Shown: positions 43,754-58,805 of the stretch, piece after piece
Position numbering within the stretch: position 1 is the stretch's first letter
Layout: every line of letters begins with the position of its first letter
Assembly (NCBI RefSeq): GCF_014698845.1
Contig: NZ_JACJTV010000021.1
Span: 1 to 64,000, forward strand
From: Coleofasciculus sp. FACHB-1120
GTDB lineage: Bacteria > Cyanobacteriota > Cyanobacteriia > Cyanobacteriales > FACHB-T130
DNA length: 64,000 nt
Direction: 5' to 3'
Notes under the pieces: generated by a model
Seen by the model: the letters and a program-made list of their open reading frames with translations, nothing else
What the model was told of the DNA's origin: nothing
Databases searched by the model: none
Program-made: the position numbers and the translations under genes

Positions 43754-44203
43754 TTGAATAACCGACACATCCTATTGGTAGAAGATAATCCTGATGATGA
43801 AGAGCTTACTTTACTGGCTTTAGATGAAAGCGGTATTTCCTACAATATTGTGGTAGCCCGCGATGGAGTAGAGGCACTGGATTATCTGTTTGGTACGGGT
43901 AAGTACGCTGACAGGGACATCTACAACCTACCAGCAGTCGTTCTACTGGATATAAAGATGCCCAAAATCGATGGTTTAGAAGTGTTGCAACGACTGCGTG
44001 CCAACGAACTGACAAAACTCTTGCCAGTCGTCATTCTCACGACATCAACAGAGAAGCAAGACCTCCTCAAGGGTTACAGCTTTGGTTGTAACAGTTACAT
44101 CCGCAAACCTGTAGATTATGTACAATTTATGACAGCAGTAAGGCAGTTGGGAATGTATTGGCTGCTTTTAAATGAAGCCCCACCGCTGCTAGGAATAGGA
44201 TGA
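43754..44203 (+). CDS. Single-domain response regulator (Rcp1-like)
   Basis: A 149-residue receiver domain with no output domain. The acidic pair is in LVEDNPDDEELT, the phospho-acceptor Asp in VVLLDIKMPKIDG and the Lys in YIRKPVDYVQF. The loop after beta-3 matches the Rcp1 type that partners cyanobacterial phytochromes and hybrid kinases. The start is TTG at 43754, as the only start that retains the first beta-strand; AACGGAAAA precedes it weakly. Its last 4 bases overlap the next gene (ATGA), so the two are translationally coupled. It follows the ethylene-type kinase by 40 bp. Confidence 0.88.
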   Translation: MNNRHILLVEDNPDDEELTLLALDESGISYNIVVARDGVEALDYLFGTGKYADRDIYNLPAVVLLDIKMPKIDGLEVLQRLRANELTKLLPVVILTTSTEKQDLLKGYSFGCNSYIRKPVDYVQFMTAVRQLGMYWLLLNEAPPLLGIG

Positions 44204-45744
44204 ATCAACCGCTGCGAGTTCTCATCGTTGAAGATTTAGAAGATGATGCTGAATTACTGCTCAACGCCCTAGAGTGCGGTGGTTATGAGCCAGTTTACGA
44301 GCGGGTAGATACAGCCGTTGCCATGAATGCAGCGCTGGATAAACAACATTGGGATATTGTCATAGCAGACTACTCAATGCCCAATTTTAGCGCTCCCGCT
44401 GCTTTAACTTTGTTGAAGGATAAAGGGCTAGATTTGCCCTTCATTATTGTTTCCGGCAACATTGGCGAGGATGTTGCAGTCGCGATGATGAAAGCTGGAG
44501 CGTCTGACTACCTGATGAAAGGCAAGCTGGCGCGATTAATTCCCGCAGTTGAACGCGAGTTGCGCGAAGCAGTTGAGCGGCGCAAACGACGCGAGGCAGA
44601 ACAAGCTTTACGTGAGAATGAGGAAAACTTTCGCTTACTCATCGAAAATGCATTAGACATCATCGCCGTTCTAGATACTGACGGCACTGTCTATTACAAT
44701 AGCCCATCCGTTGAGAAGGTTTTAGGTTACAAGTCGGAAGAGTTAATTAGCAAAAATTTCTATAATTTTATTCATCCTGAAGATGTAGCAGAGGTTATTA
44801 ATACTCTCAATCAAGCAGTTAAGAAACCAGATATTACCCTATCTATAGAATTTAAATTTCTACATCAAAATGGCTCTTGGCAAATATTAGAAGCAATTTG
44901 CAAAAATTTTATTCCCCAGTCAGGAATCGCTAGGGTAGTTGTCAACTGCCGAGACATTACGGAACGGAAGCGGGTAGAAGAAGTTCGCATTGCTTTGGAA
45001 AAAGAAAAAGAACTAAACGAAGGGAAATTTTACTTCGTTTCAATGATGGCTCATGAGTTTCGCAATCCCCTCAACACAATTCTCATGTCTGCCGAACTCC
45101 TTGAACATTACAACTATAAGGCGACTGAAGAGCAAAAAAATTCATACTTCGATCGCATTCGCTTGGCTGCCAAACACATGACACAGTTATTAGAGGATGT
45201 TTTGACAATTAGTCGAGCAGAAATTGGGGAATTAGAGATTAATGCAGAGCCTTTTGAGTTAAGACAATTTTGCCACGATTTGATGGAGGAAATTCAGTTT
45301 ACGACTGGAAAGGAACACACGCTCATCTTTGTCAGTAAATGTAAATGTAGCCAGGTATGCATGGATCAAAAACTTCTATGGCATATTCTGACAAATTTGG
45401 TCTCGAATGCAATTAAGTATTCACCGCAAGGGGGTACTGTCCAGCTTGAACTTTCTTGTCAAAATGGGCAGGCAACGATTCAAATTAAAGATGAAGGAAT
45501 TGGCATTCCTCCAACCGACCAAGAACGACTGTTTGAAGTGTTTCATCGAGCCAAAAATGTTGGCAAGATTCCCGGTACAGGGCTGGGATTATCAATTGTC
45601 AAAAAATTCGTGGATTTGCACGGCGGTCAGATTTCCGTCAGTAGTGAAGTTGGGGTAGGCACTACTTTTACTGTGCTGCTGCCATTGAACAGTCAGATGT
45701 CAACCGAGGAGTTAGACAATTCGACTGCGTATTTTGCCAATTAA
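44200..45744 (+). CDS. Receiver-PAS-histidine kinase
   Basis: A 514-residue soluble hybrid with the receiver first. REC is at residues 1-125 (VLIVEDLEDDAELL, DIVIADYSMPNFS, YLMKGKLARLIP), PAS at about 140-260 (IENALDIIAVLDTDGTVYYN, in part), HisKA with MMAHEFRNPLNTI and HATPase with DEGIGIPPTDQERLFEVFHRA and GTGLGLSIVKKFVDLHGG (each seen complete). The N-terminal receiver suggests it takes phosphate or a signal from upstream kinases and relays it. With the single-domain regulator it forms a phosphorelay candidate downstream of the ethylene-type kinase. Start ATG 44200. Confidence 0.93.
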   Translation: MNQPLRVLIVEDLEDDAELLLNALECGGYEPVYERVDTAVAMNAALDKQHWDIVIADYSMPNFSAPAALTLLKDKGLDLPFIIVSGNIGEDVAVAMMKAGASDYLMKGKLARLIPAVERELREAVERRKRREAEQALRENEENFRLLIENALDIIAVLDTDGTVYYNSPSVEKVLGYKSEELISKNFYNFIHPEDVAEVINTLNQAVKKPDITLSIEFKFLHQNGSWQILEAICKNFIPQSGIARVVVNCRDITERKRVEEVRIALEKEKELNEGKFYFVSMMAHEFRNPLNTILMSAELLEHYNYKATEEQKNSYFDRIRLAAKHMTQLLEDVLTISRAEIGELEINAEPFELRQFCHDLMEEIQFTTGKEHTLIFVSKCKCSQVCMDQKLLWHILTNLVSNAIKYSPQGGTVQLELSCQNGQATIQIKDEGIGIPPTDQERLFEVFHRAKNVGKIPGTGLGLSIVKKFVDLHGGQISVSSEVGVGTTFTVLLPLNSQMSTEELDNSTAYFAN

Positions 45745-45937
45745 ACTGTCATTTATCGCAGTTCTCAACTACCGAGCTTCACAGTAGAGTCTCACCCTCG
45801 TGAAGATTGCTGGTTGCTTGGGCTAAAGCGCGATCGCTTGTATTTGTCCCTTTGGTATAGTACACTTGTACCAAGTTAAATTTAATACATCTTCAGACCG
45901 CGCCAAAATCGATACAAGCGCAAGGGAGTCAGAAATA

Positions 45938-46960
45938 ATGGCTTGGAATCCTGGGCAGAAGTTGCAAAACGGCAAGTACACCATTGAAAAAGTGCTAGGG
46001 CAGGGTGGTTTTGGAATCGCCTATTTGGTTAAAAACAAAAAAGGCAATTTGCTTGTCATCAAAACCCTCAACCAGTTTCTGCAACGCCAACACGACTTCG
46101 GAAAATTTCAGCAGGATTTCCTGAATGAAGCGGTGCGGTTAGCCAAATTCAATCATCCTCATATCGTGAAAATTGATGAGGTCATTCAAGAGGATGGGCT
46201 GTGGTGCATTGTGATGGAATATATTGCTGGAGAAAGTCTAGCCCATCGAGTTTGGCAGAAAGGGGCAATGCCCGAAACGGAGGCATTCCGCTATATTCAG
46301 CAGATAGGTGACGCCCTGACGCTGGTTCACAACAATGGTTTACTGCATCGGGATGTTAAGCCACTCAACATCATGCTGCGCTCTTGTAAAAATGCTGATG
46401 TTGTCACTTCTGAGATGGAGGGCGTCTTTGAAGCGGTGTTAGTTGACTTTGGCATTGCCCGCGAGTTTACCCCAGATATCACCCAAACGCAGACAGAATT
46501 TTGCTCTAGCGGCTTTGCACCGATTGAGCAGTATGACTGGCGCTCAAAACGTGGCGCTTACACGGATGTTTATTCTTTAGCCGCGACGCTTTATACCTTA
46601 TTAACTGCCCAAGTACCTACGCCTTCACCGATGAGAGCGTATGGGATGGAACTCACACCACCCAAACAGATTAATTCGCTCCTCGGCGATCGCGCAAATT
46701 ACGCGATTGTTAAAGGGATGGCTTTAAAACCCGAAGATCGCCCTCAGTCAGTGCAGGAATGGCTGGCATTGTTGGGAATCCCAGCCAGAAATGCTAATGC
46801 TAGTCCTCTTGTCCAATTGCAGGAGCGATTGCGTGAAGCCCAAGAAAATAAGTTAAAAGATAGCGATGAGTGGCGAGAGCGATTCCGGAAGGCGCAAGCA
46901 GACAGGTTAAAAGATCATCATAATTGGCGCGATCGCTTGCGGAAAGCTTGTCAAAAGTGA
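45938..46960 (+). CDS. Serine/threonine protein kinase with C-terminal helical repeats
   Basis: About 340 residues. The kinase domain (residues 14-275) has the Gly-loop VLGQGGFGIAYL, the catalytic loop HRDVKPLNIML and the DFG segment VDFGIARE. The rest is a charged helical tail with an 18-residue repeat of pattern R-L-R-x-A-Q-x-x-x-L-K-D-x-x-x-W-R-x (two and a half copies). No membrane helix is present, so it is cytoplasmic. Start ATG 45938, with AAGGGAG at 45922-45928; the frame is open to 45866 but unlikely. The exported protein at 47264 follows on the same strand after 300 bp. Confidence 0.93.
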   Translation: MAWNPGQKLQNGKYTIEKVLGQGGFGIAYLVKNKKGNLLVIKTLNQFLQRQHDFGKFQQDFLNEAVRLAKFNHPHIVKIDEVIQEDGLWCIVMEYIAGESLAHRVWQKGAMPETEAFRYIQQIGDALTLVHNNGLLHRDVKPLNIMLRSCKNADVVTSEMEGVFEAVLVDFGIAREFTPDITQTQTEFCSSGFAPIEQYDWRSKRGAYTDVYSLAATLYTLLTAQVPTPSPMRAYGMELTPPKQINSLLGDRANYAIVKGMALKPEDRPQSVQEWLALLGIPARNANASPLVQLQERLREAQENKLKDSDEWRERFRKAQADRLKDHHNWRDRLRKACQK

Positions 46961-47263
46961 TGAGCCACGGATAGCTCTGATAGCGGAATCTTGAAATTGT
47001 CAGGAGCGGGATGCGATCGCATACTGATCCTCATTGCAACCAGATAGACTCTTCCGTCGTTTTTGGACGCTGACGCCTGGAAAAACGATAATTTAGATCA
47101 GCGCATCCTCTAGACCATTGGGAACCTAGAGCGATCATTTTGGCGTCAGATCCAGGTAAGACTGAGAAGGTAAGGCTGCCAATTTTTGTTCTTTGACCCT
47201 ATTGTGGGATGAAAGAGCGGCTTTTTATGAGTAAATACCTAATGCAAAAAAAAATCTAAGGAC
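46961..47263. other. Spacer with one hairpin
   Basis: TCGTTTTT (47057-47064) and AAAAACGA (47081-47088) form a perfect 8-bp stem with a 16-base loop. No gene is seen. AAAATCTAAGGACATG at the end supplies a weak binding site for the next gene. Confidence 0.4.
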
Positions 47264-47920
47264 ATGGTGAAACGGTCTCACCGAATGATATTGATGAGTG
47301 GCTTGATTTTTGCTGGTTTAGTGTTTGCCAAACCAGCACAGGCATTAGTTTTTCCTCAGGGCTTGCCGAAACCACTGGTAGTACCAGCCAACCTTTTTCT
47401 CAGCGCTCAGCCTTATTTACCTTCACGAAGTTTAGAACAAATACCACCCGAATTGCTTCCGGAGCCGACTCTAGAGGATTTTACTGCCGATCTTTGTCAG
47501 GATCTTCCTCTCGGTGTTGGTATTCCCGGCTTTCAACCAGGGGTACATAAGAACGTTGTCCAAGGAATCCTCGGTAGTCCCACCGTAACGACGAGAGGCT
47601 ACTGGCCGAATACTCGTGCAATATCCTATCAATTAATACCCGATCAGGTGAGCCTAGGTTTTTTATTTGATAAAACGTCTGGACGCATCCGTCAAACCGA
47701 AGCATCTTTTGCCCAATGGGTGAATACCGAGATAATGCTGGTGACACTGGATAGTATGTTGGGTTGCAAGCTCAACGACACCATCAAGCAGGGTTTGCAA
47801 CAGGTGCAGCAGCGTCAGGCTCCCAAATTCTTTTTTTCGCTAGAGTCTCTTCGGGGAGTGATTGAGCGAGATAGACGCGATCGCGTTTATATTGGCATTT
47901 GGGAGGCAGGCTTACACTAA
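47264..47920 (+). CDS. Exported protein resembling the C-terminal domain of some cyanobacterial Ser/Thr kinases
   Basis: A 218-residue protein with a signal peptide (residues about 7-28, MILMSGLIFAGLVFAKPAQA). The mature part includes LPLGVGIPGFQPGVHKNVV, GYWPNTRAISYQLIPDQVSLGFLFD, IRQTEASFAQWV and ends RDRVYIGIWEAGLH. I recall this G-Y-W-x-N-T ... L-G-x-L-F-D ... R-Q-T-E ... Y-I-G-x-W block from the extracytoplasmic C-termini of cyanobacterial Ser/Thr kinases, where its role is unknown. Here it is free-standing and lies downstream of a kinase that lacks it. The functional link is inference. Confidence 0.72.
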   Translation: MVKRSHRMILMSGLIFAGLVFAKPAQALVFPQGLPKPLVVPANLFLSAQPYLPSRSLEQIPPELLPEPTLEDFTADLCQDLPLGVGIPGFQPGVHKNVVQGILGSPTVTTRGYWPNTRAISYQLIPDQVSLGFLFDKTSGRIRQTEASFAQWVNTEIMLVTLDSMLGCKLNDTIKQGLQQVQQRQAPKFFFSLESLRGVIERDRRDRVYIGIWEAGLH

Positions 47921-48001
47921 AGATGAGTCGTTGAGAATTCGTAATGGGTCATGCGTCATTCGTTCAGTAGCTAAAAACCAAGAACTAAAAACGATTGCTC
48001 G

Positions 48002-48022
48002 TTACCCATTACCCATTACCCA
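48002..48022. repeat. Heptanucleotide tandem repeat (three copies)
   Basis: TTACCCA occurs three times in tandem just upstream of the HD-domain gene start at 48031. It overlaps the open frame beginning at 47995, an argument against that upstream start. Confidence 0.7.
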
Positions 48023-48030
48023 AAATTTAC

Positions 48031-48615
48031 ATGATTCTTTCACAACGCTTTATCGATGCCCTCACCTTTGCCACCACCTTGCACGCGAACCAAATTCGCA
48101 AGGGTTCGGGTGTTCCCTATATTTCCCATTTACTCGGCGTCACCAGTATTGCTTTAGAGCATGGGGCGAATGAAGATGAAGCGATCGCTGCCCTACTCCA
48201 TGATGCCATCGAAGACCAAGGCGGTGCCGCGACACGAGAAGAAATTCGCCGTCGGTTTGGAGATACGGTGACGGAAATTGTCAACGGTTGTACCGATGCT
48301 GACACAACACCTAAACCCCCTTGGCAGCAACGCAAAGAAGCTTATCTTGCCCACATTCCGACTGCTTCAACCTCAGTGCGTCTTGTCTCCGCAGCCGATA
48401 AACTCCACAATGCTCGCTCGATTTTGACTGATTATCACATTGTGGGCGAGGCAGTTTGGGAACGCTTCCAAGCAGGCAAACAAGGAACGCTTTGGTATTA
48501 TCGCTCTTTGGTTGACGCATTTCGCCAAGCCGGTTCATCACCGCTGATTGATGAATTAGAACGGGTAGTTTCAGAACTAGAACATCAGGTAGACAAGGCG
48601 AGTGAGGCTGCTTGA
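48031..48615 (+). CDS. HD-domain phosphohydrolase (RelA/SpoT hydrolase-like)
   Basis: A 194-residue stand-alone HD domain. Landmarks are FATTLHANQIRKGSGVPYISHLLGV, AALLHDAIEDQGG (the HD pair followed by the E-D of the SpoT-type motif), and VSAADKLHNARSIL. This ordering is that of the hydrolase half of (p)ppGpp hydrolases and small alarmone hydrolases (Mesh1-like). No synthetase domain is fused. Start ATG 48031; the longer open frame begins inside a heptamer repeat. It may degrade (p)ppGpp or a related nucleotide, which is inference from the motif. Confidence 0.88.
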   Translation: MILSQRFIDALTFATTLHANQIRKGSGVPYISHLLGVTSIALEHGANEDEAIAALLHDAIEDQGGAATREEIRRRFGDTVTEIVNGCTDADTTPKPPWQQRKEAYLAHIPTASTSVRLVSAADKLHNARSILTDYHIVGEAVWERFQAGKQGTLWYYRSLVDAFRQAGSSPLIDELERVVSELEHQVDKASEAA

Positions 48616-48983
48616 CTGAGGTTGCTTGACTGACCACCCTCTTGAAACCCTTGCCAATTCGTCGGTTAGCCCCGTGCAGGAGCGGTATTATTACTTTTAC
48701 AAGAGGCTAGAATGCTTTTGCCATGCTTGTTTGGTTTGCTACCTAATTCTTAAGTAAAGACGCCCTAATTCCTGCACCCAACATCTTGACTACAGGAAGA
48801 TCCAGCGAATGCGGGTACAGAAACCGTCATATTTTCACTTCATTTTACAAGTGATAACCACAAAAATTATCTATTTTTATTGGAAAAAAGTAAGAATATT
48901 AAAATAGAATTTTTCGGTTTTAGGAACCGACGATTCTGAACACAACTTGCTAGATGCAATTCTACGTCAAATGATGTCATCGC
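48616..48983. other. Spacer upstream of the AAA_35 operon
   Basis: AT-rich, with no gene. It should contain the promoter of the HTH-AAA/WD40 operon; no operator is obvious. Confidence 0.45.
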
Positions 48984-50402
48984 ATGAATGTAGATGAAGT
49001 TCTGGAAGCCGTAGAAAAAGTTCTGCTTTCTCGGCAACTCACCCCTATTGAGCAATTAATTCTGCGTCGCTCTTGGTTGGGAGACGATTATCGTGAAATG
49101 GCACAGGATTCTGCTTACAGTATCCCCCACCTCAAAGAAGTTGGCTCCCAGTTGTGGCAGGCTCTCTCAGCAGTACTCAGGCAGAGAGTAACGAAAAAAA
49201 ATTTGCATTTACTTGTCAACCTGCACCAGCAAAACTCGACTGGTGAACAGCAAAATAGAGTGCAAGAGTTGCCAACAGACACAGAAATAGAACATAATTT
49301 TTCAGATAATATTCTAGCCTCTGAAACAGAGACCGAGCAGAAATTTCCAGGGGGGCCTGTACCGCTAGATTCTCCTCTCTATATCAATCGTCCCCCGATT
49401 GAAGAACTCGCTTACACTGAGATTACCCAGCCTGGATGCCTACTCCGCATCAAAGCACCCAAGCAGATGGGGAAAAGTTCGCTCCTGATCCGGATTCTGG
49501 CTCGCGCTACAGATGTTGGTTACAAAACTGTCTCCTTGGATTTTCAGGAAACCGACGAAGCTATTTTTACCTCCCTCGACAAATTCCTCCGTTGGTTTTG
49601 TGCCAATGTCAGCAGACAGTTGGATCTCAAACCCCGATTGGACGAGTTTTGGGATGAAGATATGGGCAGTAAGGTTAGCTGCAAAATATATTTTGAAGGT
49701 TATCTATTCAAGAAGATTAACAGCCCCTTAGTTTTAGCTTTAAATGAAGTAAATCGAGTTTTTGAGCATCCCAAAATAGCCCTAGATTTTCTGCCAATGC
49801 TGCGATTTTGGCACGAACAAGCACGGGCAGTTGACGTTTGGCAAAAGCTCAGAATTTTGGTTGTTCATACTACAGAAATTTATATTCCGCTAAAGCTGAA
49901 TCAATCTCCTTTCAATGTTGGGGTATCCATTAGGTTGCCACAGTTTTCAAGCGAACAGGTGCAAGATTTGGCACAGCGTTATGGACTTGATTGGAGCGAT
50001 AATGTAGAGACTCTTTCCCCTGCGTTAACATACCGCAAAGCTTATGCATCTCTCCTGATGGAAATGATGGGCGGACATCCCTATTTGGTAAGCGTAGCAC
50101 TTTATCACCTGCGTCGAGGAGCGATGACATTAGAGGCGTTATTGCAAGTGGCTCCTACACCGTCTGGGATTTACAGCGATCATCTACGGGGTCATTTGGC
50201 AATGCTTCAAGATGAACCACAATTAGCATCAGCTTTGCAACAGGTTGTGACTGCTGACAAGAGGGTGCAATTAGAAGCGATCGCTGCCTATAAGCTAGAA
50301 AGCATGGGATTGATTCAGATGGATGGGGATCGGGCAAGTCCTAGCTGCCAGCTATATCGTCTCTATTTTCGCTCCCAGTTAGGAGAGAAAAAGGAATGCT
50401 AA
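48984..50402 (+). CDS. HTH-AAA_35 ATPase-like protein with degenerate Walker B
   Basis: A 472-residue protein. Residues 1-75 (VDEVLEAVEKVLLSRQLTPIEQLILRRSWLG, in part) form the winged-helix-like N-terminal domain seen in vWA-MoxR-associated (VMAP) conflict systems. A variable linker follows and then an AAA_35 (AAA-like) domain from about residue 130, with the Walker A loop APKQMGKSSLL and the block PLVLALNEVNRVFEHP. The Walker B acidic pair is usually DEVD; here Asp254 is Asn and so is residue 257 (NEVN). This probably blocks hydrolysis while keeping nucleotide binding. The tail includes GGHPYLVSVALYHLRRG. It ends 23 bp before the AAA-WD40 gene. Confidence 0.86.
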   Translation: MNVDEVLEAVEKVLLSRQLTPIEQLILRRSWLGDDYREMAQDSAYSIPHLKEVGSQLWQALSAVLRQRVTKKNLHLLVNLHQQNSTGEQQNRVQELPTDTEIEHNFSDNILASETETEQKFPGGPVPLDSPLYINRPPIEELAYTEITQPGCLLRIKAPKQMGKSSLLIRILARATDVGYKTVSLDFQETDEAIFTSLDKFLRWFCANVSRQLDLKPRLDEFWDEDMGSKVSCKIYFEGYLFKKINSPLVLALNEVNRVFEHPKIALDFLPMLRFWHEQARAVDVWQKLRILVVHTTEIYIPLKLNQSPFNVGVSIRLPQFSSEQVQDLAQRYGLDWSDNVETLSPALTYRKAYASLLMEMMGGHPYLVSVALYHLRRGAMTLEALLQVAPTPSGIYSDHLRGHLAMLQDEPQLASALQQVVTADKRVQLEAIAAYKLESMGLIQMDGDRASPSCQLYRLYFRSQLGEKKEC

Positions 50403-50425
50403 TATAAGCCCAAAAATACTAATCA

Positions 50426-53400
50426 ATGAAATATCAAGTCGGCGGTAGTTTAACTAGCAAAGCACCCAGCTATGTAGAGCGAATTGCGGATACCCAACTC
50501 TACGACGCCTTAAAACAGGGTGAGTTTTGCTACGTCCTCAATTCCCGGCAAATGGGTAAATCTTCTCTGCTGGTGAGAACGCGCCATCGCTTGCAACAAG
50601 AAGGGTTTAAATGTACTGCTGTAGATATGACTAATATCGGCAGTGAAATTATTACGCCGACTCAGTGGTACAAGGGAATTGTTGCCGATCTGTGGTCGGG
50701 TTTTAACTTGTTAGAAAAACTTAATTTGAAAGCTTGGTGGCGAGAGCAAGAAGATATCTCCCTACTCCAAAGGTTGAGCCGATTTCTTGCCGATTTGTTA
50801 TTGGTTCAATTTCCGAATGAAAGACTATTTATCTTTATTGATGAAGTTGATAGCATTTTAAGTTTGGATTTTCCGGTCGATGACTTTTTTGCCTGGATTC
50901 GGTTCTGCTACAACCAACGAGCCATCAATCCAGAATACAGACGGATTACTTTTGCAATTTTTGGTGTAGCAACCCCAAGCGATCTAATTGTCGATAGAAA
51001 TCGTACCCCCTTTAATATTGGGAAAGCGATAGAACTAACTGGCATTCGACTGCACGAAGCTCAGCCATTGGTGAAAGGATTAGAGGTAAAAAAAGGAAAC
51101 TCGCAAACCGTTTTAAAAGAAATATTAGCCTGGAGTGGAGGGCAACCCTTTCTCACTCAAAAGTTGTGTAACTTGGTCGGGAATCTTGTTGACACGCGAT
51201 TGAGCGAGTCTGAGACGATGAACAGCGTTCTGACCATTCCCCCAGGAAATGAAGCGTTTTGGGTAGAAAACCTGGTGAAGACACGCATCATTCACAAATG
51301 GGAAAGCCAAGATGAACCAGAGCATTTAAAGACAATACGCGATCGCCTCTTACGAAACGAACGAAAAGCGGGACGATTGCTCGGAATTTATCAGCAAATC
51401 CTGCAAGGCAGGAAATTACCAGCCGATGACAGCCAAGAACAAATCGAATTACTGCTATCGGGTTTAGTCGTAAAACACGAAGGTTACTTGCAGGTAAAAA
51501 ACCGAATTTATCAAGAAGTATTTAATCTCAAATGGGTAGAGAAACAATTAGAGCAACTGCGCCCTTACTCTCAAGCCTTCGATGCTTGGATTGCTTCAAA
51601 ACAAAAGGATGCATCGCGGCTGTTGCGCGGGCAAGCTTTAAAAGATGCTCAAATGTGGGCGCTGGGAAAAAGCTTGAGCGACTTGGATTATCAATATATC
51701 GCTGCCAGTCAAGAACTCGATCGCAAAGAAGTCCAACTGATTCTAGAAGCAGAACGCACCAAAGAAGTGGAAGCGCGATTAAAAGAAGAACAAAGACGAT
51801 TAAATCAAGAAAAAGAAGCTGCCAAACGCCAAAAAATCTTGCTGTTTGCAGTCAGCGTGGCATTTTTTATTGCCTGCGGATTAGGAGTAATAACTTATTT
51901 TCAGTATCGCCGTGCAACAGAAAGCGAACGTCAAGCTAGGATTAGCGAAATTCGAGCGATCGCATCTTCTTCTGAGGGATTGTTTGCCTCAAACCAAGGA
52001 TTAGACGCTCTGATAGAAGCCATCAAAGCTAAACGAAAATTACAAAGATTAGGATTGGCAGATTCCAGTATCGATCGCACAGTTGAAAATGCACTCAGAC
52101 AAGCCGTTTATCAAGCAGATGAATACAACCGTTTTTCCGGGCATCAAGCGGCTGTGATGGCAGTCGATATCAGTCCTGATAGCAAGCTAATTGCCTCGGC
52201 AAGCGTAGATAAAACCGTTAAACTTTGGCGACGAGATGGAACGGAAATTGCCACTCTCACAGGTCATCAAGCGATCGTTCGCAGAGTCAAATTTAGCCCA
52301 GACGGTCAGCTAATTGCTTCTGGAAGCGACGATGGTACTGTAAAACTTTGGAAGTTGGACGGCACTTTGCTAAAAAATTTTCAGGGTAACAGTCTTGCCG
52401 TGTGGGGAGTTGCTTTTAGTCCTGACGGTCAAATAATTGCCTCTGCAAGTCAGGATAACACTGTGAAACTCTGGAAGTTAGACGGTACTTTGTTAAAAAC
52501 TTTTCCAGCTCGTACTGGTAGTGGTAGTACCTTAACTTCAGTCGCATTTAGTCCCGATGGTGAAATAATTGCATCCACAAGTGGAGATAAAACAATAAAA
52601 CTCTGGAAACTTGACGGTACTTTGCTGAGGACACTTGTAGGTCATACTGCTGTCGTATCTTCAGTGGCGTTTAGTCCCGACGGTAAAACAATTGTTTCGG
52701 TAAGTGGAGACAAAACCATAAAAGTTTGGAAGCTTGACGGTACTTTGCTGAGGACGCTTGTAGGTCATACTGCTGTCATATCTTCAGTGGCGTTTAGTCC
52801 TGACGGCCAAAAAATCGTCTCTGGAAGTCGCGATAAAACTGTCAAAATTTGGAATATTGACGGCACAGAACTGACTACCTTCAGCGGTCACAGCGCGTCG
52901 ATTTGGGATGTAGCTTGGAGTCGCGACGGCAGCTTTATTGCTTCGGCGGGTGCAGAAAATACCGTCAGATTGTGGGAAAGTAAAAATCCCTTACAGACAA
53001 CTATTACTGCCCATAAAGGTGCAATTTGGGGAATCGATATCAGTGCTGATAGTTCTACGATCGCTACTTCTAGCGAGGACGGTACAGTTAAACTTTGGAG
53101 TCGGGAAGGCAAATTGTTGGCGACTTTCACTGGAGAAAACTCGGTACTCTATGGTGTTGGTGTTGCTAGCAGTGCGGATGGCAAGTTAATTGCTGCTACC
53201 AGAAACGACGATAAGGTGAATATTTGGGAGCGAAATGGGAAAGCGATCGCAACTTTAACAGGTCATCAAGCTAACGTCTTTACAGTCGCTTTCAGTCCAG
53301 ACGCTCAAATTATTGCTACGGGAAGCCTGGATAACACAATTAAGCTTTGGCGGCGCGACGGTACATTATTGCATACCATGACCGGACATCACACTCCTGT

Positions 53401-53968
53401 TTGGCAGGTAGCATTTAGTCCCGACGGTCAGTTAGTTGTCTCCGCCGGAGGAGACAGTACTGTAAAGTTGTGGAAGCTTGACGGTAGTTTAGTGAGAACT
53501 TTCCCAGGTCACACTACGGCAGTTTGGAGACTTGCTTTTAACCGTCAAGGTAATATCATCGCTTCTAGCAGTGGAGATAAAACCGTTAAGCTTTGGACAA
53601 TTGACGGTAAATTACTCAGAACGCTTTCAGGTCACACAGCAGCAGTGTGGGGAGTGGGGTTTAGTCCCGACAGTCAAATTATTGCTTCTGGCGGTGTAGA
53701 CAACACGGTGAAGTTGTGGAAACTCGACGGTACGGAACTAACCACGCTTAGGGGCCACACTGCGGCAATTAGGGGAGTAGCGTACAGTCCTGACGGAAAG
53801 TTTGTCGCTTCCGTCGGTGAGGATAACACGCTGAATCTGTGGAATGTGGAGCGAATTCTCCATCTGGATTTGTTAAGTTATGGTTGCAATTGGGTACGGG
53901 ATTATCTGCGGACGAATGCAGATGTGGAGGAAAGCGATCGCTTTCTTTGTGATGGAATTCAATCCTGA
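50426..53968 (+). CDS. AAA_35-TM-WD40 repeat protein
   Basis: An 1180-residue protein. An N-terminal AAA_35 domain (residues about 1-330) has the intact Walker A-like loop SRQMGKSSLL and Walker B FIFIDEVDSIL, plus GGQPFLTQKLCNL. A long coiled coil (about 410-470) precedes one membrane helix (about 470-492), a helical stretch, and 14 WD40 repeats (about 568-1130), enough for two seven-bladed propellers. Repeats 5 and 6 are almost identical in DNA (period about 123 bp), showing recent amplification. It is the second gene of a likely operon. The architecture is that of NTPase sensor proteins of bacterial conflict or signalling networks; ligand and output are unknown. Confidence 0.92.
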   Translation: MKYQVGGSLTSKAPSYVERIADTQLYDALKQGEFCYVLNSRQMGKSSLLVRTRHRLQQEGFKCTAVDMTNIGSEIITPTQWYKGIVADLWSGFNLLEKLNLKAWWREQEDISLLQRLSRFLADLLLVQFPNERLFIFIDEVDSILSLDFPVDDFFAWIRFCYNQRAINPEYRRITFAIFGVATPSDLIVDRNRTPFNIGKAIELTGIRLHEAQPLVKGLEVKKGNSQTVLKEILAWSGGQPFLTQKLCNLVGNLVDTRLSESETMNSVLTIPPGNEAFWVENLVKTRIIHKWESQDEPEHLKTIRDRLLRNERKAGRLLGIYQQILQGRKLPADDSQEQIELLLSGLVVKHEGYLQVKNRIYQEVFNLKWVEKQLEQLRPYSQAFDAWIASKQKDASRLLRGQALKDAQMWALGKSLSDLDYQYIAASQELDRKEVQLILEAERTKEVEARLKEEQRRLNQEKEAAKRQKILLFAVSVAFFIACGLGVITYFQYRRATESERQARISEIRAIASSSEGLFASNQGLDALIEAIKAKRKLQRLGLADSSIDRTVENALRQAVYQADEYNRFSGHQAAVMAVDISPDSKLIASASVDKTVKLWRRDGTEIATLTGHQAIVRRVKFSPDGQLIASGSDDGTVKLWKLDGTLLKNFQGNSLAVWGVAFSPDGQIIASASQDNTVKLWKLDGTLLKTFPARTGSGSTLTSVAFSPDGEIIASTSGDKTIKLWKLDGTLLRTLVGHTAVVSSVAFSPDGKTIVSVSGDKTIKVWKLDGTLLRTLVGHTAVISSVAFSPDGQKIVSGSRDKTVKIWNIDGTELTTFSGHSASIWDVAWSRDGSFIASAGAENTVRLWESKNPLQTTITAHKGAIWGIDISADSSTIATSSEDGTVKLWSREGKLLATFTGENSVLYGVGVASSADGKLIAATRNDDKVNIWERNGKAIATLTGHQANVFTVAFSPDAQIIATGSLDNTIKLWRRDGTLLHTMTGHHTPVWQVAFSPDGQLVVSAGGDSTVKLWKLDGSLVRTFPGHTTAVWRLAFNRQGNIIASSSGDKTVKLWTIDGKLLRTLSGHTAAVWGVGFSPDSQIIASGGVDNTVKLWKLDGTELTTLRGHTAAIRGVAYSPDGKFVASVGEDNTLNLWNVERILHLDLLSYGCNWVRDYLRTNADVEESDRFLCDGIQS

Positions 53969-54006
53969 TTTACATCAGGTATTCACCATAAAATAATCCC
54001 TTGACC

Positions 54007-56199
54007 TCAGATGGCGCTGAGATTGTAGCACGACAATGCGGCGATTAAGGTTTCAGCTCCCATGCTATCGACTGGCTTAGAAAACAAATATCCTTGCCCA
54101 GATTCGCATCCCATCGTCCGGAGTTGTTGCATCTGTTGAGCCGTTTCGATGCCCTCCGCGGTGACATCCATTCCCAAATTATTCGCCAGGGTCACAATCG
54201 CCCGGACAATCGATAAACTTTCGCCACCGATACCCATCCGGCTAATAAAAGAACGGTCAATCTTCAAAGTATTGATCGGAAAATGAAATAACCGGCTTAA
54301 AGAAGAATAGCCGGTACCGAAGTCATCAATCGATAGCTCAATGCCAAGGACTCTCAAATATTCCAGCATCGCGATCGCATCTTCATTGTCTGCGATCGCG
54401 CTTTCGGTAATCTCTAACTTTAAACTGTAGGGATCGCACTCTGTATTCCGCAAAATCTGGTCAATCTTTTCAATTAAATCAGGTTGCAAAAACTGCCTGC
54501 CAGACAAATTGACGCTCATTTTCAGTCCCCGTTGGTTCGGAAATGCCGACTGCCAGTGTTGCAACTGACTGCAAGCCTCTCGCAGCACCCACTCACCTAT
54601 CGGCAGGATCAGCCCCGTTTCTTCCGCCACGGGGATAAACTGCTCTGGGGAAACTAAACCGCGTGTGGGATGCTGCCAGCGCACCAACGCCTCGAAGCCA
54701 GAAATTTGACCCGTTGCCAGCGATACAATCGGCTGATAGTGCAGCCGTAACTCTTGGCGTTCCAGAACGTGTCGCAGATCCGTCTCCATCTGCAATCGGG
54801 CAACTGCTTGGTGGTGCATGGTCTTGTTAAACACCGCATACCGCGCCCTCCCCAGCGTCTTTGCTCGATACATGGCAATGTCGGCATCGCGCAGGATGTC
54901 TTCTGCCTGGTCATAGCCCAGCATACTCAAAGCAATGCCAATACTGACGGTGCTGAATACTTCTTGCCCCTCGATCTGCAATGGTTTTCGCAGTTCCCTT
55001 TGCAATCGATTGGCAATCCGAGTGACTTGGCTTAGGTCTGGTAAATCTGCTAGCACGATGGCAAACTCGTCTCCACTTAACCGCGCTACGGTATCTTCTG
55101 GGCGCACCGCTGCCTGGAGAATTTTAGCGATCGCTACCAGCAATTGATCTCCAGCGACGTGTCCCAGGCTATCGTTAATCACCTTAAATCGATCGACATC
55201 CAAAAACAGGACGGCAAATAAATAGTCCTGGCATTGATTCGCCCGTTCCAGGGTTTGTCGCAACCGCTCCATAAAAAAAGCTCGGTTGGGCAAACCTGTC
55301 AAAGCATCGTGATAAGCTGCATGGAATAATTGCGTCTCGACTTGCTTGCGCTGGCTAATATCCCGTTGAATTGCTAGGTAATGGGTAATCTCATCTTGTT
55401 CATTTTTGATGGGTTCGATGTGCCACTCGTTGTAAAACTCCGTGCCATCTTTGCGATAGTTAATCGCTTCGCCATAAAATACTTTCCCCTCGGACAGAGT
55501 TTGCCGCAGTCGGTCGAGAAGCCTCCGATCGGTTTTTGGTCCTTGCAAAATCCTCGGTGATTTACCGATGACTTCCTCTGGGATGTAGCCAGTCATTCTC
55601 GTAAACGCGCGATTGACAAAGACGATTTCTGGACCGGGAAACATTAAGTGAGTGGAAGTAATTGCGATCGCATCTTCCGCAAATTCAACCGCTGCCGCCA
55701 GTTGTCGTAACCTTTCGTCGGTTTTTTGCCGTTCCGTAATGTCAATCGCCACACCCACTAAACCAACCACTTCACCTGTTTCATTTTTCAAGGGGGTCGT
55801 GCGGTTTTCGTACACTAGATTGCCTAGAGAGGTAATCCAGGTCGCCTCTTTTCCTGCCAAAACGTTGCGAATATTGGCTAAGATGTCAGGCTGGTCTTTG
55901 TAAAGGTCAAAGATCGACTGCCCGATTGCCTCACCGGCTTTCAATCCGAGAGCCTCTAGCCCCTTGCCTTCAGAAAGCGTAAAAATCCCATTGCGATCCA
56001 GGGCATACAAGATAATCGGTGCATTTCCAACGCTGGCGCGTAGCAGCTGTTCATTACCTAATCCCAATGAACTGAGGCAATGTTGTGGCGATACACTCAT
56101 ACTCAAACAGCCGCCCTTCTTAGCGTTATCAATCCGTTCACATCGCATCGTCCCGATCCTCTGGGATTGGGAGATAGGTTTCTGCTTGATAAGTTCCAT
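54007..56199 (-). CDS. PAS-PAS-GGDEF-EAL c-di-GMP enzyme
   Basis: A 730-residue soluble protein. PAS 1 is at about residues 50-155. PAS 2 (about 165-290) is LOV-like in layout (GKSPRILQGPKTD and INYRKDGTEFYNEW) but has Pro in place of the photoactive Cys. The GGDEF domain reads ARLSGDEFAIVLAD, an active-type SGDEF, with RPED five residues upstream as the product-inhibition I-site. The EAL domain has GFEALVRWQHP, SVNLSGRQF, LEITES, DDFGTGYSSLS and ETAQQ, a full catalytic set. It can therefore in principle make and break c-di-GMP. It lies 98 bp downstream of the LOV-type kinase, same strand. Confidence 0.93.
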   Translation of the reverse strand: MELIKQKPISQSQRIGTMRCERIDNAKKGGCLSMSVSPQHCLSSLGLGNEQLLRASVGNAPIILYALDRNGIFTLSEGKGLEALGLKAGEAIGQSIFDLYKDQPDILANIRNVLAGKEATWITSLGNLVYENRTTPLKNETGEVVGLVGVAIDITERQKTDERLRQLAAAVEFAEDAIAITSTHLMFPGPEIVFVNRAFTRMTGYIPEEVIGKSPRILQGPKTDRRLLDRLRQTLSEGKVFYGEAINYRKDGTEFYNEWHIEPIKNEQDEITHYLAIQRDISQRKQVETQLFHAAYHDALTGLPNRAFFMERLRQTLERANQCQDYLFAVLFLDVDRFKVINDSLGHVAGDQLLVAIAKILQAAVRPEDTVARLSGDEFAIVLADLPDLSQVTRIANRLQRELRKPLQIEGQEVFSTVSIGIALSMLGYDQAEDILRDADIAMYRAKTLGRARYAVFNKTMHHQAVARLQMETDLRHVLERQELRLHYQPIVSLATGQISGFEALVRWQHPTRGLVSPEQFIPVAEETGLILPIGEWVLREACSQLQHWQSAFPNQRGLKMSVNLSGRQFLQPDLIEKIDQILRNTECDPYSLKLEITESAIADNEDAIAMLEYLRVLGIELSIDDFGTGYSSLSRLFHFPINTLKIDRSFISRMGIGGESLSIVRAIVTLANNLGMDVTAEGIETAQQMQQLRTMGCESGQGYLFSKPVDSMGAETLIAALSCYNLSAI

Positions 56200-56297
56200 A
56201 TTTTTTCACTAGAATTTTTCTAATATTTATTTACTATTTCTTAATATTTCCGGCTTGGGATCATCTGCTACCGAATCAGTGCATCCCTAGCCATTCA

Positions 56298-58805
56298 TTA
56301 CGCAACTTGAGAGGGAGCCATCGGGAGGGGTGTTGCAGATTCGGAACACTGCTGTAGCGGAATTTCTAAAATAAACTCTGTCCCTTGTCCGGGCGTTGAC
56401 AGACACTTCAATTGACCTCCATGACGCTCCACGACCACTTGGTAGCTAATAGACAACCCCAACCCAGTCCCTTCTCCTACAGGTTTGGTCGTAAAAAAGG
56501 GGTCAAAGATGCGTTTTTGGACGGATTCAGGAATGCCGCCACCATTATCTGCAATCCGGATGACCACTTGATTTTTGTTGTTAAGGGTCGTGCAAATCCG
56601 AATCGTCGGTAAGGGGGAAGGGGTGATGGGGAATGAGCGATCGCAACTTTCTTCTCCATGACTCATCACCCATGAAGCCTGAACGGTTTCCCGTTCCAGA
56701 GCATCAATGGCGTTGCTCAGGAGATTCATAAAGACCTGATTGATCTGCCCAGCGTAGCACTCGACCTGGGGTAAGTCGCCGTATTGTTTGACAATCAAAA
56801 TGCCTGGTTTTCCTCCCTGCGGCTTCAATCGATGCTGCAAGATCAACAGGGTACTGTCGATGCCTTCATGCAAATCCACCGGCTTTTTCTGGCTCTCATC
56901 ATGACGGGAGAAATTCCGCAAGCTCAGGACAATTTGGCGAATGCGTTCCGCCCCCATTTGCATAGAATCCAGTAGTCTTGGGAAATCTTCAACCAGAAAC
57001 TCCCAATCCATTGCCTCGGCTTCTGTTTGAATTTCTGCTGCTGGCTGAGGATAGTGCTGCTGGTAGAGGTTTAACAAATGCAGCAAATCTTGGGCATACT
57101 GCAAAGCCGGGGTCAAATTCCCATAAATGAAGGAGACAGGGTTATTAATTTCATGAGCAACACCCGCCACTAACTGCCCCAAACTAGACATTTTTTCGCT
57201 TTGGATCAACTGGGTTTGGGTTTTCCGCAGCCGATGCAGAGCTTGTTTAAGTTTGGTCGTTTTTTTCCTTAATTGTGCTTCTGATTTTTGTAATGCTTCC
57301 TCAGCTTGCTTGCGTTCGACCAGTTCGGCTTCCAGTTGCTCAAATAGCGTCGATTGCTGAATTGCGATCGCTAGCTGCACACTAAGCTGTTTGAGCAATT
57401 CCACTTCCGATGCCTGCCATTGCCTGGTTCCGGTGCAGTTTTGGGCAACGAGCAGCCCCCATAATTGAGGGTTGGATGAGGAGTAAGGGTTGGATGAGGA
57501 GTGAGGAGTGGATGAGGGAACAGGGCTGGTTGAGGTGTGAGGGCTGAGGAAGAGTCCTTTCACTTCCGTCTTGTTTTGCACAATGGGGACGACCAGACTG
57601 GCTTTTACCTGAAACTGTGCTAGCCAATCAATCTGACACTGACTGAGATTTGCTGTGTCGATATTCTCAATTGCTTGAATCTCACCTTGTTGGTAGAGAG
57701 AAAGGTGATTTTCCCCAAAACATCGGCTGTGAATCTGGGTTCCCAAACTCTCCGCCCAACCTGTGCCCACTGATTCTACAGCCCCAACACCACACCCATC
57801 TGAATGCAAGCGGTAGATCGTTACTCGGTCGGTGTTGAGAAATTGCCGGACTTGCGATACAGCCGTTTTCAGGACTTCTTCCAGGTTCAGAGACTGGCGG
57901 ATGCGCTGATTCATCGTTCTGAGCAGGCGTTCTCCGGTCGCTTGCTGCCACAACGCTGTTTCTACCTGCTTGCGACCTGTAATATCCATCACCGTCCCAG
58001 CCACTCTTGTCGGTGTATGGGTTTGGTCGCAAAATAGGGTGCCTGTAACGGCAACCCAGCGAACGGCACCATCCGGGCAAAGCAGACGATGTTCGATGCT
58101 AAAGAGACGACCTGCCAGGTCTTCTGTCCGGGATGCTTCCACAATCTGCGCGATCGCTTCCGTCACGCGATCGCATTCCTCCGGATGAATACACTTTAAA
58201 TAAGCTTCATAAGTGCTACCAAAGGAACCGGGTGGGAAACCCAATAAAGATTCCGCATTTGCCGACCAGGTTAGCTGACCCGTCTGCTTCTCCCACTCCC
58301 AAACGCCCATACTGGCAGCATTCAGGGCAAGTCCCAGCCTGGTTTCGCTTTGTTGTAACGCTGCTTGTGGCTGTTGTTCAGCGAGCTTGCGCTTGGTAAT
58401 ATCTGTCTGAAAGACGAGAAACTGAGTCAGTTTCCCACTTGCATCCCATACCGGAGCAATAATTAGCTCGTTCCAAAAAGGCGTGCCATCTTTGCGATAA
58501 TTCTTTAAGGCTACCCGGCACTCTTGCGCTACGTGCAAGGCGTGGCGAATTTGCTCAATCGCATCCTGGTCAGTATCGACACCTTGCAAAAAGCAGCAGT
58601 CGCGCCCGATGACTTCGGCTGAAGTATAGCCCGTTATCTTCTCAAAAGCGGGATTGCAATAGACGATAGAAGGCTTGGTGGAACTAGCATCCAGAATGAC
58701 AAGACCACCAGGCATGGTTGCTAGGACGCGATCGCATAACCCTCCTGCTTCTGGGTGCTGATTGAGGGTGTGGAACTTGCCTAACGTGCCTTGCTGGCTT
58801 GCCAT
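56298..58805 (-). CDS. LOV-PAS-GAF histidine kinase
   Basis: An 835-residue soluble sensor. The first PAS domain (residues about 25-140) is LOV-type: GRDCCFLQG at 67-75 places Cys70 at the flavin-adduct position, and NYRKDGTPFWNELIIAP follows; the usual Asn after GR is Asp. PAS 2 spans about 155-280 and a GAF domain about 295-480. A Ser/Pro/Asn-rich insert lies in the GAF. A coiled coil leads to HisKA (VAGVAHEINNPVSF) and HATPase (DNGGGIPESVQKRIFDPFF; GEGTGLGLSISYQVV). It is a likely blue-light-responsive kinase. No receiver is fused. Confidence 0.92.
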   Translation of the reverse strand: MASQQGTLGKFHTLNQHPEAGGLCDRVLATMPGGLVILDASSTKPSIVYCNPAFEKITGYTSAEVIGRDCCFLQGVDTDQDAIEQIRHALHVAQECRVALKNYRKDGTPFWNELIIAPVWDASGKLTQFLVFQTDITKRKLAEQQPQAALQQSETRLGLALNAASMGVWEWEKQTGQLTWSANAESLLGFPPGSFGSTYEAYLKCIHPEECDRVTEAIAQIVEASRTEDLAGRLFSIEHRLLCPDGAVRWVAVTGTLFCDQTHTPTRVAGTVMDITGRKQVETALWQQATGERLLRTMNQRIRQSLNLEEVLKTAVSQVRQFLNTDRVTIYRLHSDGCGVGAVESVGTGWAESLGTQIHSRCFGENHLSLYQQGEIQAIENIDTANLSQCQIDWLAQFQVKASLVVPIVQNKTEVKGLFLSPHTSTSPVPSSTPHSSSNPYSSSNPQLWGLLVAQNCTGTRQWQASEVELLKQLSVQLAIAIQQSTLFEQLEAELVERKQAEEALQKSEAQLRKKTTKLKQALHRLRKTQTQLIQSEKMSSLGQLVAGVAHEINNPVSFIYGNLTPALQYAQDLLHLLNLYQQHYPQPAAEIQTEAEAMDWEFLVEDFPRLLDSMQMGAERIRQIVLSLRNFSRHDESQKKPVDLHEGIDSTLLILQHRLKPQGGKPGILIVKQYGDLPQVECYAGQINQVFMNLLSNAIDALERETVQASWVMSHGEESCDRSFPITPSPLPTIRICTTLNNKNQVVIRIADNGGGIPESVQKRIFDPFFTTKPVGEGTGLGLSISYQVVVERHGGQLKCLSTPGQGTEFILEIPLQQCSESATPLPMAPSQVA

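Follow-up and report, generated by a model that had tools for sequence, protein, structure and literature searches.

What do two adjacent genes for AAA_35 proteins form together in the cyanobacterium Coleofasciculus sp. FACHB-1120? The question is raised by a stretch of 64,000 nucleotides (nt) of contig NZ_JACJTV010000021.1 (the window), in which an earlier note had read the pair as one dead and one live ATPase, a candidate for an undescribed switch system. The two genes were confirmed as open reading frames at 48984-50402 and 50426-53968, on the same strand with a gap of 23 bp, and their products are referred to as P1 and P2. As judged from gene comparisons, the sensor half of P2 was exchanged as a block, and the pair belongs to a recurrent two-gene module of predicted signal transduction ATPases with numerous domains (STAND).

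P1-like proteins are designated class I and P2-like proteins class II. G codes stand for genomes (G000 is the own genome of the pair) and L codes for fetched loci. The features of the pair, all on the + strand, are:

48984-50402, +: P1, helix-turn-helix (HTH) and AAA_35 STAND nucleoside triphosphatase (NTPase), class I, putative output arm; 472 aa; mean predicted local distance difference test (pLDDT) of the AlphaFold2 model 87.1
48984-49241, +: N-terminal HTH of P1; five helices, no strands in the AlphaFold2 model
49347-50372, +: AAA_35/STAND module of P1 with the GGHPY (GxP-like) motif and a C-terminal winged helix, from Pfam and the AlphaFold2 model
49455-49481, +: P1 Walker A, APKQMGKSS; its Lys-164 is present in 132 of 132 class I proteins
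49743-49754, +: P1 Walker B, NEVN; Asn-254 for Asp, Glu-255 kept, Asn-257 at +3
50426-53968, +: P2, AAA_35 STAND NTPase, coiled coil, predicted membrane helix, 14 WD40 blades and conserved tail, class II, putative sensor arm; 1180 aa
50426-51565, +: STAND NTPase and winged helix of P2; best fold 2qen, Z 19.2
50828-50851, +: P2 Walker B, FIFIDEVD, intact
51623-53845, +: exchanged sensor cassette of P2 (helical linker, coiled coil, membrane helix, WD40), about residues 400-1140; exact ends vary by comparison
51836-51892, +: hydrophobic (membrane) helix of P2, residues 471-489; hydropathy 2.75, charges 6+/2- before and 3+/2- after
52106-53842, +: WD40 region of P2, 14 blades; best sequence match among solved structures 2YMU, E 3.5e-243

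Exchange of the sensor half of P2

P2 was compared with its syntenic orthologue from the same genus (G001, L038). The number of synonymous substitutions per site (dS) was 0.23 for the NTPase half and 0.17-0.34 overall for P1 and three flanking genes. Across the sensor half the nucleotide identity falls to 57.8% with a dS of 2.85, which is near saturation, and in the 40-residue tail dS is back to 0.37. When the 14 repeat units of P2 were compared with the 11 units of the orthologue that could be cut, no match between the two genes exceeded 71.3%.

Close relatives of both sensor halves were found in other genomes. Along its length, the G001 sensor half has 88.5-91% nucleotide identity to a gene from another genus, the class II member of a different pair (G004 C47). 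The sensor half of the window shares 91-93% of its nucleotides with class II genes from G151 and G058, which belong to another family (dS 0.20 and 0.21). The NTPase halves are saturated in all of these comparisons. No class I gene was present beside the G151 and G058 genes in the fetched stretches. In the corresponding search of 388 genomes, matches with an E of at most 1e-30 came from 56 genomes, which include the own genome but not G001 to G005.

Further cases were found among 58 long class II genes, of which that of L051 runs off its stretch. Sensors are shared and NTPases are not in L068/L232, L068/L093 and L051/L062, whereas NTPases are shared and sensors are not in L051/L232, L051/L093 and L200/L204 (second copy). 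Genome G037, a single contig, likewise has two tandem genes that share their NTPases (dS 0.21) and not their sensors. For the control pairs L036/L176 and L093/L232 both halves agree. Since the dS contrast runs in both directions, which rate differences cannot yield at once, recombination of the sensor block is indicated.

An artefact, be it repeats compared out of register, chimeric assembly or uneven selection, could in principle produce such a mosaic: WD40 repeats align promiscuously, several of the genomes are drafts, and the shifted-register test cut 11 orthologue units against 14 of P2. It was nevertheless judged very improbable in view of the 71.3% ceiling between the repeat units, the two-way dS contrast, the agreement of both control pairs and the tandem case within a single contig. 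In addition, the half that the window gene has in common with those of G151 and G058 forms a single block, about 2.3 kb long with 91.5-92% identity. On these comparisons the sensor half of P2 was exchanged as a block, with boundaries at about residues 335-500 and about 1140, and WD40 sensors move as cassettes between distantly related bacteria. Among the open-licence papers that the literature searches listed, none was recognised as a report of sensor exchange or swapping in such pairs.

If an unchanging NTPase pair does receive its sensors as cassettes, a natural domain-swap experiment has already taken place, and its boundaries mark recognition off from signalling. Matched chassis with different sensors, such as those of the window and G001, would then permit ligand discovery by difference.

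Output and sensor arms of a two-gene module

AAA_35 (Pfam PF14516, curated cut-off 27 bits) was matched by residues 122-463 of P1 with 491.8 bits (E 9.5e-148) and, in a scan of the first 572 residues of P2, by residues 7-247 with 103.6 bits (E 1.2e-29). It was the only Pfam family for P1 at E up to 10, and no TIR domain was found there. The best folds for the AlphaFold2 model of P1 were the archaeal ATPases 2qen (Z 20.8, root-mean-square deviation 4.3, 311 aligned) and 2fna (Z 20.3). The same two were best for the model of P2 residues 1-480 (pLDDT 83.7), with Z 19.2 (deviation 4.6, 312 aligned) and 18.6. The NB-ARC proteins RPP1 and CED-4 came next (Z about 18 for P1, 15-16 for P2), archaeal ORC2 scored similarly, and the folds of Avs3, Avs4, Avs5 and plant nucleotide-binding leucine-rich repeat receptors (NLRs) were also among the structural matches. 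The GxP motif is a hallmark of STAND proteins, and a conserved GxP-like motif precedes the winged helix in P1 (GGHPY) and P2 (GGQPF). The two classes are mutually homologous (hhalign probability 99.3, E 5.2e-20). STAND NTPases have a P-loop NTPase core with a helical domain and a winged helix behind it, the fold of archaeal ATPase_2 and NB-ARC. Because of the predicted folds, the GxP-like motifs and this homology, P1 and P2 are both assigned to this class, which includes NLRs and CED-4. When the PDB was searched by sequence, RecA and response regulators gave short profile matches, which were set aside.

The architecture read earlier from the sequence was largely borne out for P2. Its Walker B is intact (Asp-139/Glu-140), a long helix at residues 419-479 agrees with the coiled coil, a single hydrophobic segment spans residues 471-489, and 14 blade ends were found by motif, compared with 13 WD40 stretches by Pfam. 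Among the PADLOC models HEAT-ARM_XIII matched over the WD40 repeats (E 2.4e-44) and is taken as a cross-match of these repeats; PDC-S06 matched weakly (E 0.32). P1 gave no match to PADLOC models at E up to 1. The description of its N-terminal domain as winged-helix-like did not hold, since the five helices of the model come without strands and the domain is hence not winged.

For the distribution of the two classes, AAA_35 matches were listed in 12 genomes, the loci were fetched and the genes typed, which gave 34 intact class I genes after the broken copies at L083, L184, L206 and L207 had been left out. The Pfam outputs of these 34 are TIR_2 (11), Guanylate_cyc (4), GerE (3), Sigma70_r4_2 (3), CHAT (2) and Pkinase (1). 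No more than 18 residues follow the NTPase in 31 of them, and the variation lies mostly in front. Guanylate_cyc precedes the NTPase in L180 but follows it in L188 and L200 and, judged by length, also in L204. In class II, 7-86 residues precede the NTPase motif and the variation lies behind it. WD40 was identified in 15 of 40 class II proteins (one of the 41, L195 1-2564, was left out of the scan), and of 23 C-terminal halves poor in WD40 signatures, 10 contain GAF and 3 CHASE2. The three pairs of the own genome follow the same scheme: HTH-TIR-AAA_35 with AAA_35 and three GAF domains, HTH-AAA_35 with AAA_35-WD40 (P1/P2), and HTH-AAA_35 with AAA_35-CHASE2. As read from these domain assignments, outputs sit on class I and sensors on class II, in output-then-sensor order.

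A profile of the P1 HTH matches 14 of the 34 class I proteins. The same type of HTH also heads an NB-ARC protein of the own genome (G000 C5:138882-139130, L215), which continues into pentapeptide and, by eye, WD40-like repeats and is a possible partner or competitor. Of 36 HTHs, 3 reach Sigma70_r4_2 with a best E of 0.039, which does not count as evidence for a sigma region 4 identity. Sigma70_r4_2 itself is matched by 3 of the 34 class I proteins (best E 3.1e-5), and in the two of them that were checked singly the N-terminus differs.

The genes of the two classes are neighbours far above chance and form a recurrent output/sensor module. With distances counted by hand from the gene coordinates, a class II start lies within 400 bp downstream on the same strand for 25 of the 34 class I genes (at L197 the class II gene is itself broken). 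For three more the same-strand class II partner is found within 2 kb, and one, C26 of the own genome, is divergent at 274 bp, which gives 29 of 34 within 2 kb in any orientation. Another is divergent at 2.9 kb, and four (G003 C108, G012, G016 C1:994889 and G020) have no class II gene in the fetched stretch. For a distance of 500 bp, pairing by chance would be expected at 0.006. The own genome has three genes of each class, and all of them adjoin one another as pairs, one pair being divergent. The expectation that the sensor stands on the second protein of a two-gene switch and that the genes are conserved as neighbours is supported by the domain distribution and the neighbour counts, though not in the nearest relatives of P1 outside the genus, which are unpaired where their flanks were long enough.

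A second, P1-biased set comprised 132 distinct class I proteins, obtained from 145 open reading frames after 2 shorter than 300 aa and 11 exact duplicates had been dropped; near-duplicates from overlapping collections were kept. Here a class II gene lies no more than 600 bp away for 51 (downstream on the same strand for 45) and further off for 13; 41 have none despite at least 3 kb on both sides, and 27 are cut by contig or stretch ends. Pairing is labile, with 21 changes on the 132-row tree, which was built by a quick method with many long rows and 46 of 129 inner branches open; the nearest P1 relatives outside the genus are unpaired wherever their flanks permit a verdict. The trees of the partners correlate (Mantel rho 0.63, reached by 0 of 2,000 permutations) for 49 of the 51 paired loci, two having been left out by limits on gap and partner length. 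This correlation was not used as a sign of contact between P1 and P2, since species history alone could produce it.

Some loci depart from the simple pair. Broken class I or class II copies at L083, L184, L197, L206 and L207 suggest gain and loss of pairs. At L195 (G014 C1:4598000-4616000) a single class I gene precedes a row of four class II genes and a further weak match of 734 aa; three of the four carry WD40 signatures (one is cut by the stretch end) and one is short, as if several sensor arms served a single output arm. A gene of about 590 aa stands between class I and class II at L090, L153, L162, L165 and L166. The copy at L166 is a protein of the RPE65 type, which belongs to the carotenoid oxygenase family.

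Walker B residues and a probable split receptor

P1 had been described as carrying Asn instead of the Walker B Asp at residues 254 and 257. Both residues are Asn, but residue 257 lies three residues past the Walker B Asp and outside the motif; it is non-Asp in 128 of the 132 class I proteins of the P1-biased set, yet Asp in 27 of the 34 of the 12-genome set. In the context LALNEVNR the catalytic Glu-255 is present, as is the P-loop Lys-164. At position 254 the 132 proteins have N (75), D (56) or K (1), whereas Glu-255 is kept in 128 and Lys-164 in all. Paired genes show 28 N, 22 D and 1 K at this position, unpaired genes with full flanks 20 N and 21 D. On the 132-row tree N and D changed five times, and a comparison with pairing on this tree has three independent pairs only and thus no power. 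Since it is independent of pairing and there are only five changes, Asn-254 is a state that certain clades have long retained, in paired and unpaired genes alike, rather than decay. As the P-loop Lys and the Glu are retained, P1 would be expected to bind NTP and hydrolyse it slowly, rather than to be a proven dead site.

In the 12-genome set the Walker B pairs of class I are DE (20), DG (6), DN (2), DD (2), NE (2), EE (1) and KN (1), NE being found in the window gene and its same-genus orthologue only. Class II has DE in 38 of 40; the 41st, L209, was unaligned there and its frame shows FIDEVDAVL. The difference between 20 of 34 and 38 of 40 gave a p of 1.8e-4 in a Fisher test that counts related sequences as independent. 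The proposed contrast was thus found in part, as class I loses DE more often than class II, but more than half of class I keeps it. Loss of Walker B residues appears to be a tendency of the output arm and not a rule of the pair.

These counts bear on the reading in which an inactive HTH-NTPase is the defining regulated partner of an active WD40-NTPase. It would gain from the stronger loss of DE in class I and from the persistence of Asn-254, which stays with the pair in the same-genus orthologue, occurs also in the near relatives L039-L045 and L047 and changed rarely. Against this, N or D at 254 is unrelated to pairing, Glu-255 and Lys-164 are nearly always present, 2 of the 34 class I proteins carry Asn-254 in the 12-genome set, and the other two pairs of the own genome have Asp-Glu in both proteins. 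As the defining feature, the dead/live layout was rejected on the residue and pairing counts, and as an account of P1 and P2 it is unlikely.

We consider it rather probable that P1 and P2 form a split NLR-like receptor of two STAND NTPases, with a membrane WD40 sensor on P2, a shared switch and an HTH output on P1. P2 would have its anchor in the cytoplasmic membrane and its WD40 rings beyond that membrane, a topology proposed because class II relatives (L037, L120 and L164) carry CHASE2, an extracellular sensor domain, which begins at the same helix. Of the 19 class II proteins that have a helix, 15 show more K and R before it than behind it, and in 4 the numbers are equal. A ligand on the propellers would switch the P2 NTPase from ADP to ATP, whereupon P2 could oligomerise and recruit P1. 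With its intact P-loop P1 would bind NTP and, given the Asn at Walker B, stay on. Its HTH would be the output, most likely transcriptional, or possibly a docking domain for other HTH-STAND proteins. Exchange of sensors would give the fixed chassis new specificities, as expected for recognition of non-self or phage. Contact, topology, ligand and output of P1/P2 are inferred, and a defence role is plausible.

Several observations weigh against the split receptor. No predicted helix follows residue 380 in 22 of 41 class II proteins, among them the GAF-bearing L036 and the WD40-rich L186 8461-11814 and L205, which may sense inside the cell; for P2 the topology is based on hydropathy and charge. 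The predicted HTH output has no significant Pfam or PDB relative. The nearest P1 relatives outside the genus with adequate flanks (L040, L042, L043, L045 and L047) lack a class II neighbour in a range of about 5 kb, and proteins of this type may work by themselves or with a partner encoded elsewhere. The Fisher test treats relatives as independent, as stated above, and many of the outputs and sensors occur in ordinary signalling too, so that defence is one reading among others.

In Nostoc and kin, 12 class I genes of the NE type (L102-L109, L112, L113, L115 and L116) are followed by class II genes of 515-533 aa. The latter consist of NTPase, coiled coil and membrane helix, end soon after the helix and have no WD40 signatures. 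Such short proteins beside NE-type class I genes would suit an abortive-infection effector, in which triggered class II oligomers damage the membrane by their helix and class I serves as regulator or decoy. The many class II proteins without a helix and the TIR and CHAT outputs on class I argue otherwise, and this reading is given even less weight than the dead/live layout.

Ordinary environmental signalling by light, redox or small molecules, without a defence role, is a possible alternative, though clearly less probable than the split receptor. It accords with the CHASE2 and GAF sensors, with cyclase, kinase and HTH outputs, and with the signalling proteins that Pfam identified nearby (histidine kinases, a Ser/Thr kinase and GGDEF-EAL). 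It accounts poorly for TIR and CHAT outputs, and exchange of whole sensors between families would be unusual for a conserved physiological signal.

Taking the split receptor further, we tentatively suggest that filamentous cyanobacteria keep a fixed two-STAND chassis and trade whole membrane-WD40 cassettes across genera and families as a horizontally moving library. The cassette of the window might then drive an NTP-locked HTH-STAND protein, so that recognition outside the cytoplasm would lead to transcription, not to NAD loss or proteolysis.

Upstream of P1, at 47264-48612, lie genes for a 218-aa protein without a Pfam match and an HD_4 (SpoT-like) protein, both of which are kept beside P1 in the same-genus genome. 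A Pfam scan of the eight proteins of 44200-58805 identified no MoxR or vWA genes. Promoter and terminator counts were inside the shuffle range and uninformative.

Comparison with known systems

Avs proteins and other bacterial NLRs are STAND switches with separate output and sensor modules, which in Avs lie in one chain, and plant paired NLRs are separate in origin. P1/P2 resembles both in combining a STAND switch with distinct output and sensor modules, and differs from the one-chain design of Avs in that these reside on two proteins. The pair would be a bacterial parallel to plant sensor/helper NLR pairs, with the added feature that Walker B residues tend to be lost from the output arm and not from the sensor arm.

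As far as the accessible text goes, cyanobacterial sigma-70 region 4 proteins carry AAA_35 as an accessory domain (PMC11119718). P1 likewise joins an HTH to AAA_35, but its HTH has no significant sigma region 4 match. An inactive STAND module (iSTAND) was described in vWA-MoxR ternary systems of multicellular bacteria in the available part of Kaur et al., 2020 (PMC7159879); the surroundings of P1/P2 differ by the absence of MoxR and vWA from the eight scanned proteins. The available part of Kaur et al., 2021 (PMC8195603) describes a two-gene STAND operon with GT4 or HEPN outputs, in which the output protein has eroded NTP-binding motifs and both proteins have a conserved arginine finger, and places it near CR-ATPases and Dap3. 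P1/P2 agrees with this operon, as described there, in its two STAND proteins and in an altered NTP-binding motif on the output carrier. Unlike in that operon, P1 keeps the P-loop Lys, Walker B alone is altered, and neither GT4 nor HEPN is present in P1, nor among 25 of 28 Pfam families shown for the 34 class I proteins.

The closest system in print is that of WRAP (Npun_R6612, PDB 2YMU), also treated in the accessible text of PMC6805158. According to the available text of PMC9218822, citing Dunin-Horkawicz, 2014, the WD40 domain of WRAP forms the C-terminus of a STAND protein, and the gene for this protein is coupled to one for a TIR-STAND protein, which in some cases has a caspase domain as well; this operon is conserved in cyanobacteria, its propeller shows rapid turnover, and an immune role was proposed. 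Among five WRAP-like loci that were fetched, L236, L237 and L239 (75-80% identity) encode a CHAT-TIR-AAA_35 protein followed by an AAA_35 protein with WD40 repeats. L238 and L240 show another layout, a first protein with a TIR-like start (by eye) and then an NTPase-WD40 protein with a weak class II match. Contrary to the earlier suggestion, the two-STAND operon is thus not undescribed, with three of the WRAP-like loci being AAA_35 pairs.

Like the WRAP operon, P1/P2 consists of two adjacent STAND genes, and the second protein ends in a 14-blade WD40 double propeller, with 2YMU as its best match by sequence among solved structures. Unlike it, P1 has an HTH and neither TIR nor CHAT, and Asn at its Walker B. 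The blades of P2 are diverged (best pair 85% at the nucleotide level, other listed pairs 65-73%), in contrast to the near-identical amplified blades of WRAP, and sensor novelty here appears to arise through exchange instead of blade amplification. As P1 has no TIR, the pair is filed as a putative sister variant of the WRAP/TIR operon, with an HTH arm and diverged blades, and not as that operon itself. The two-STAND operon is already known, whereas the mosaic of P2 and the block exchange of its sensor half are what is unexpected here.

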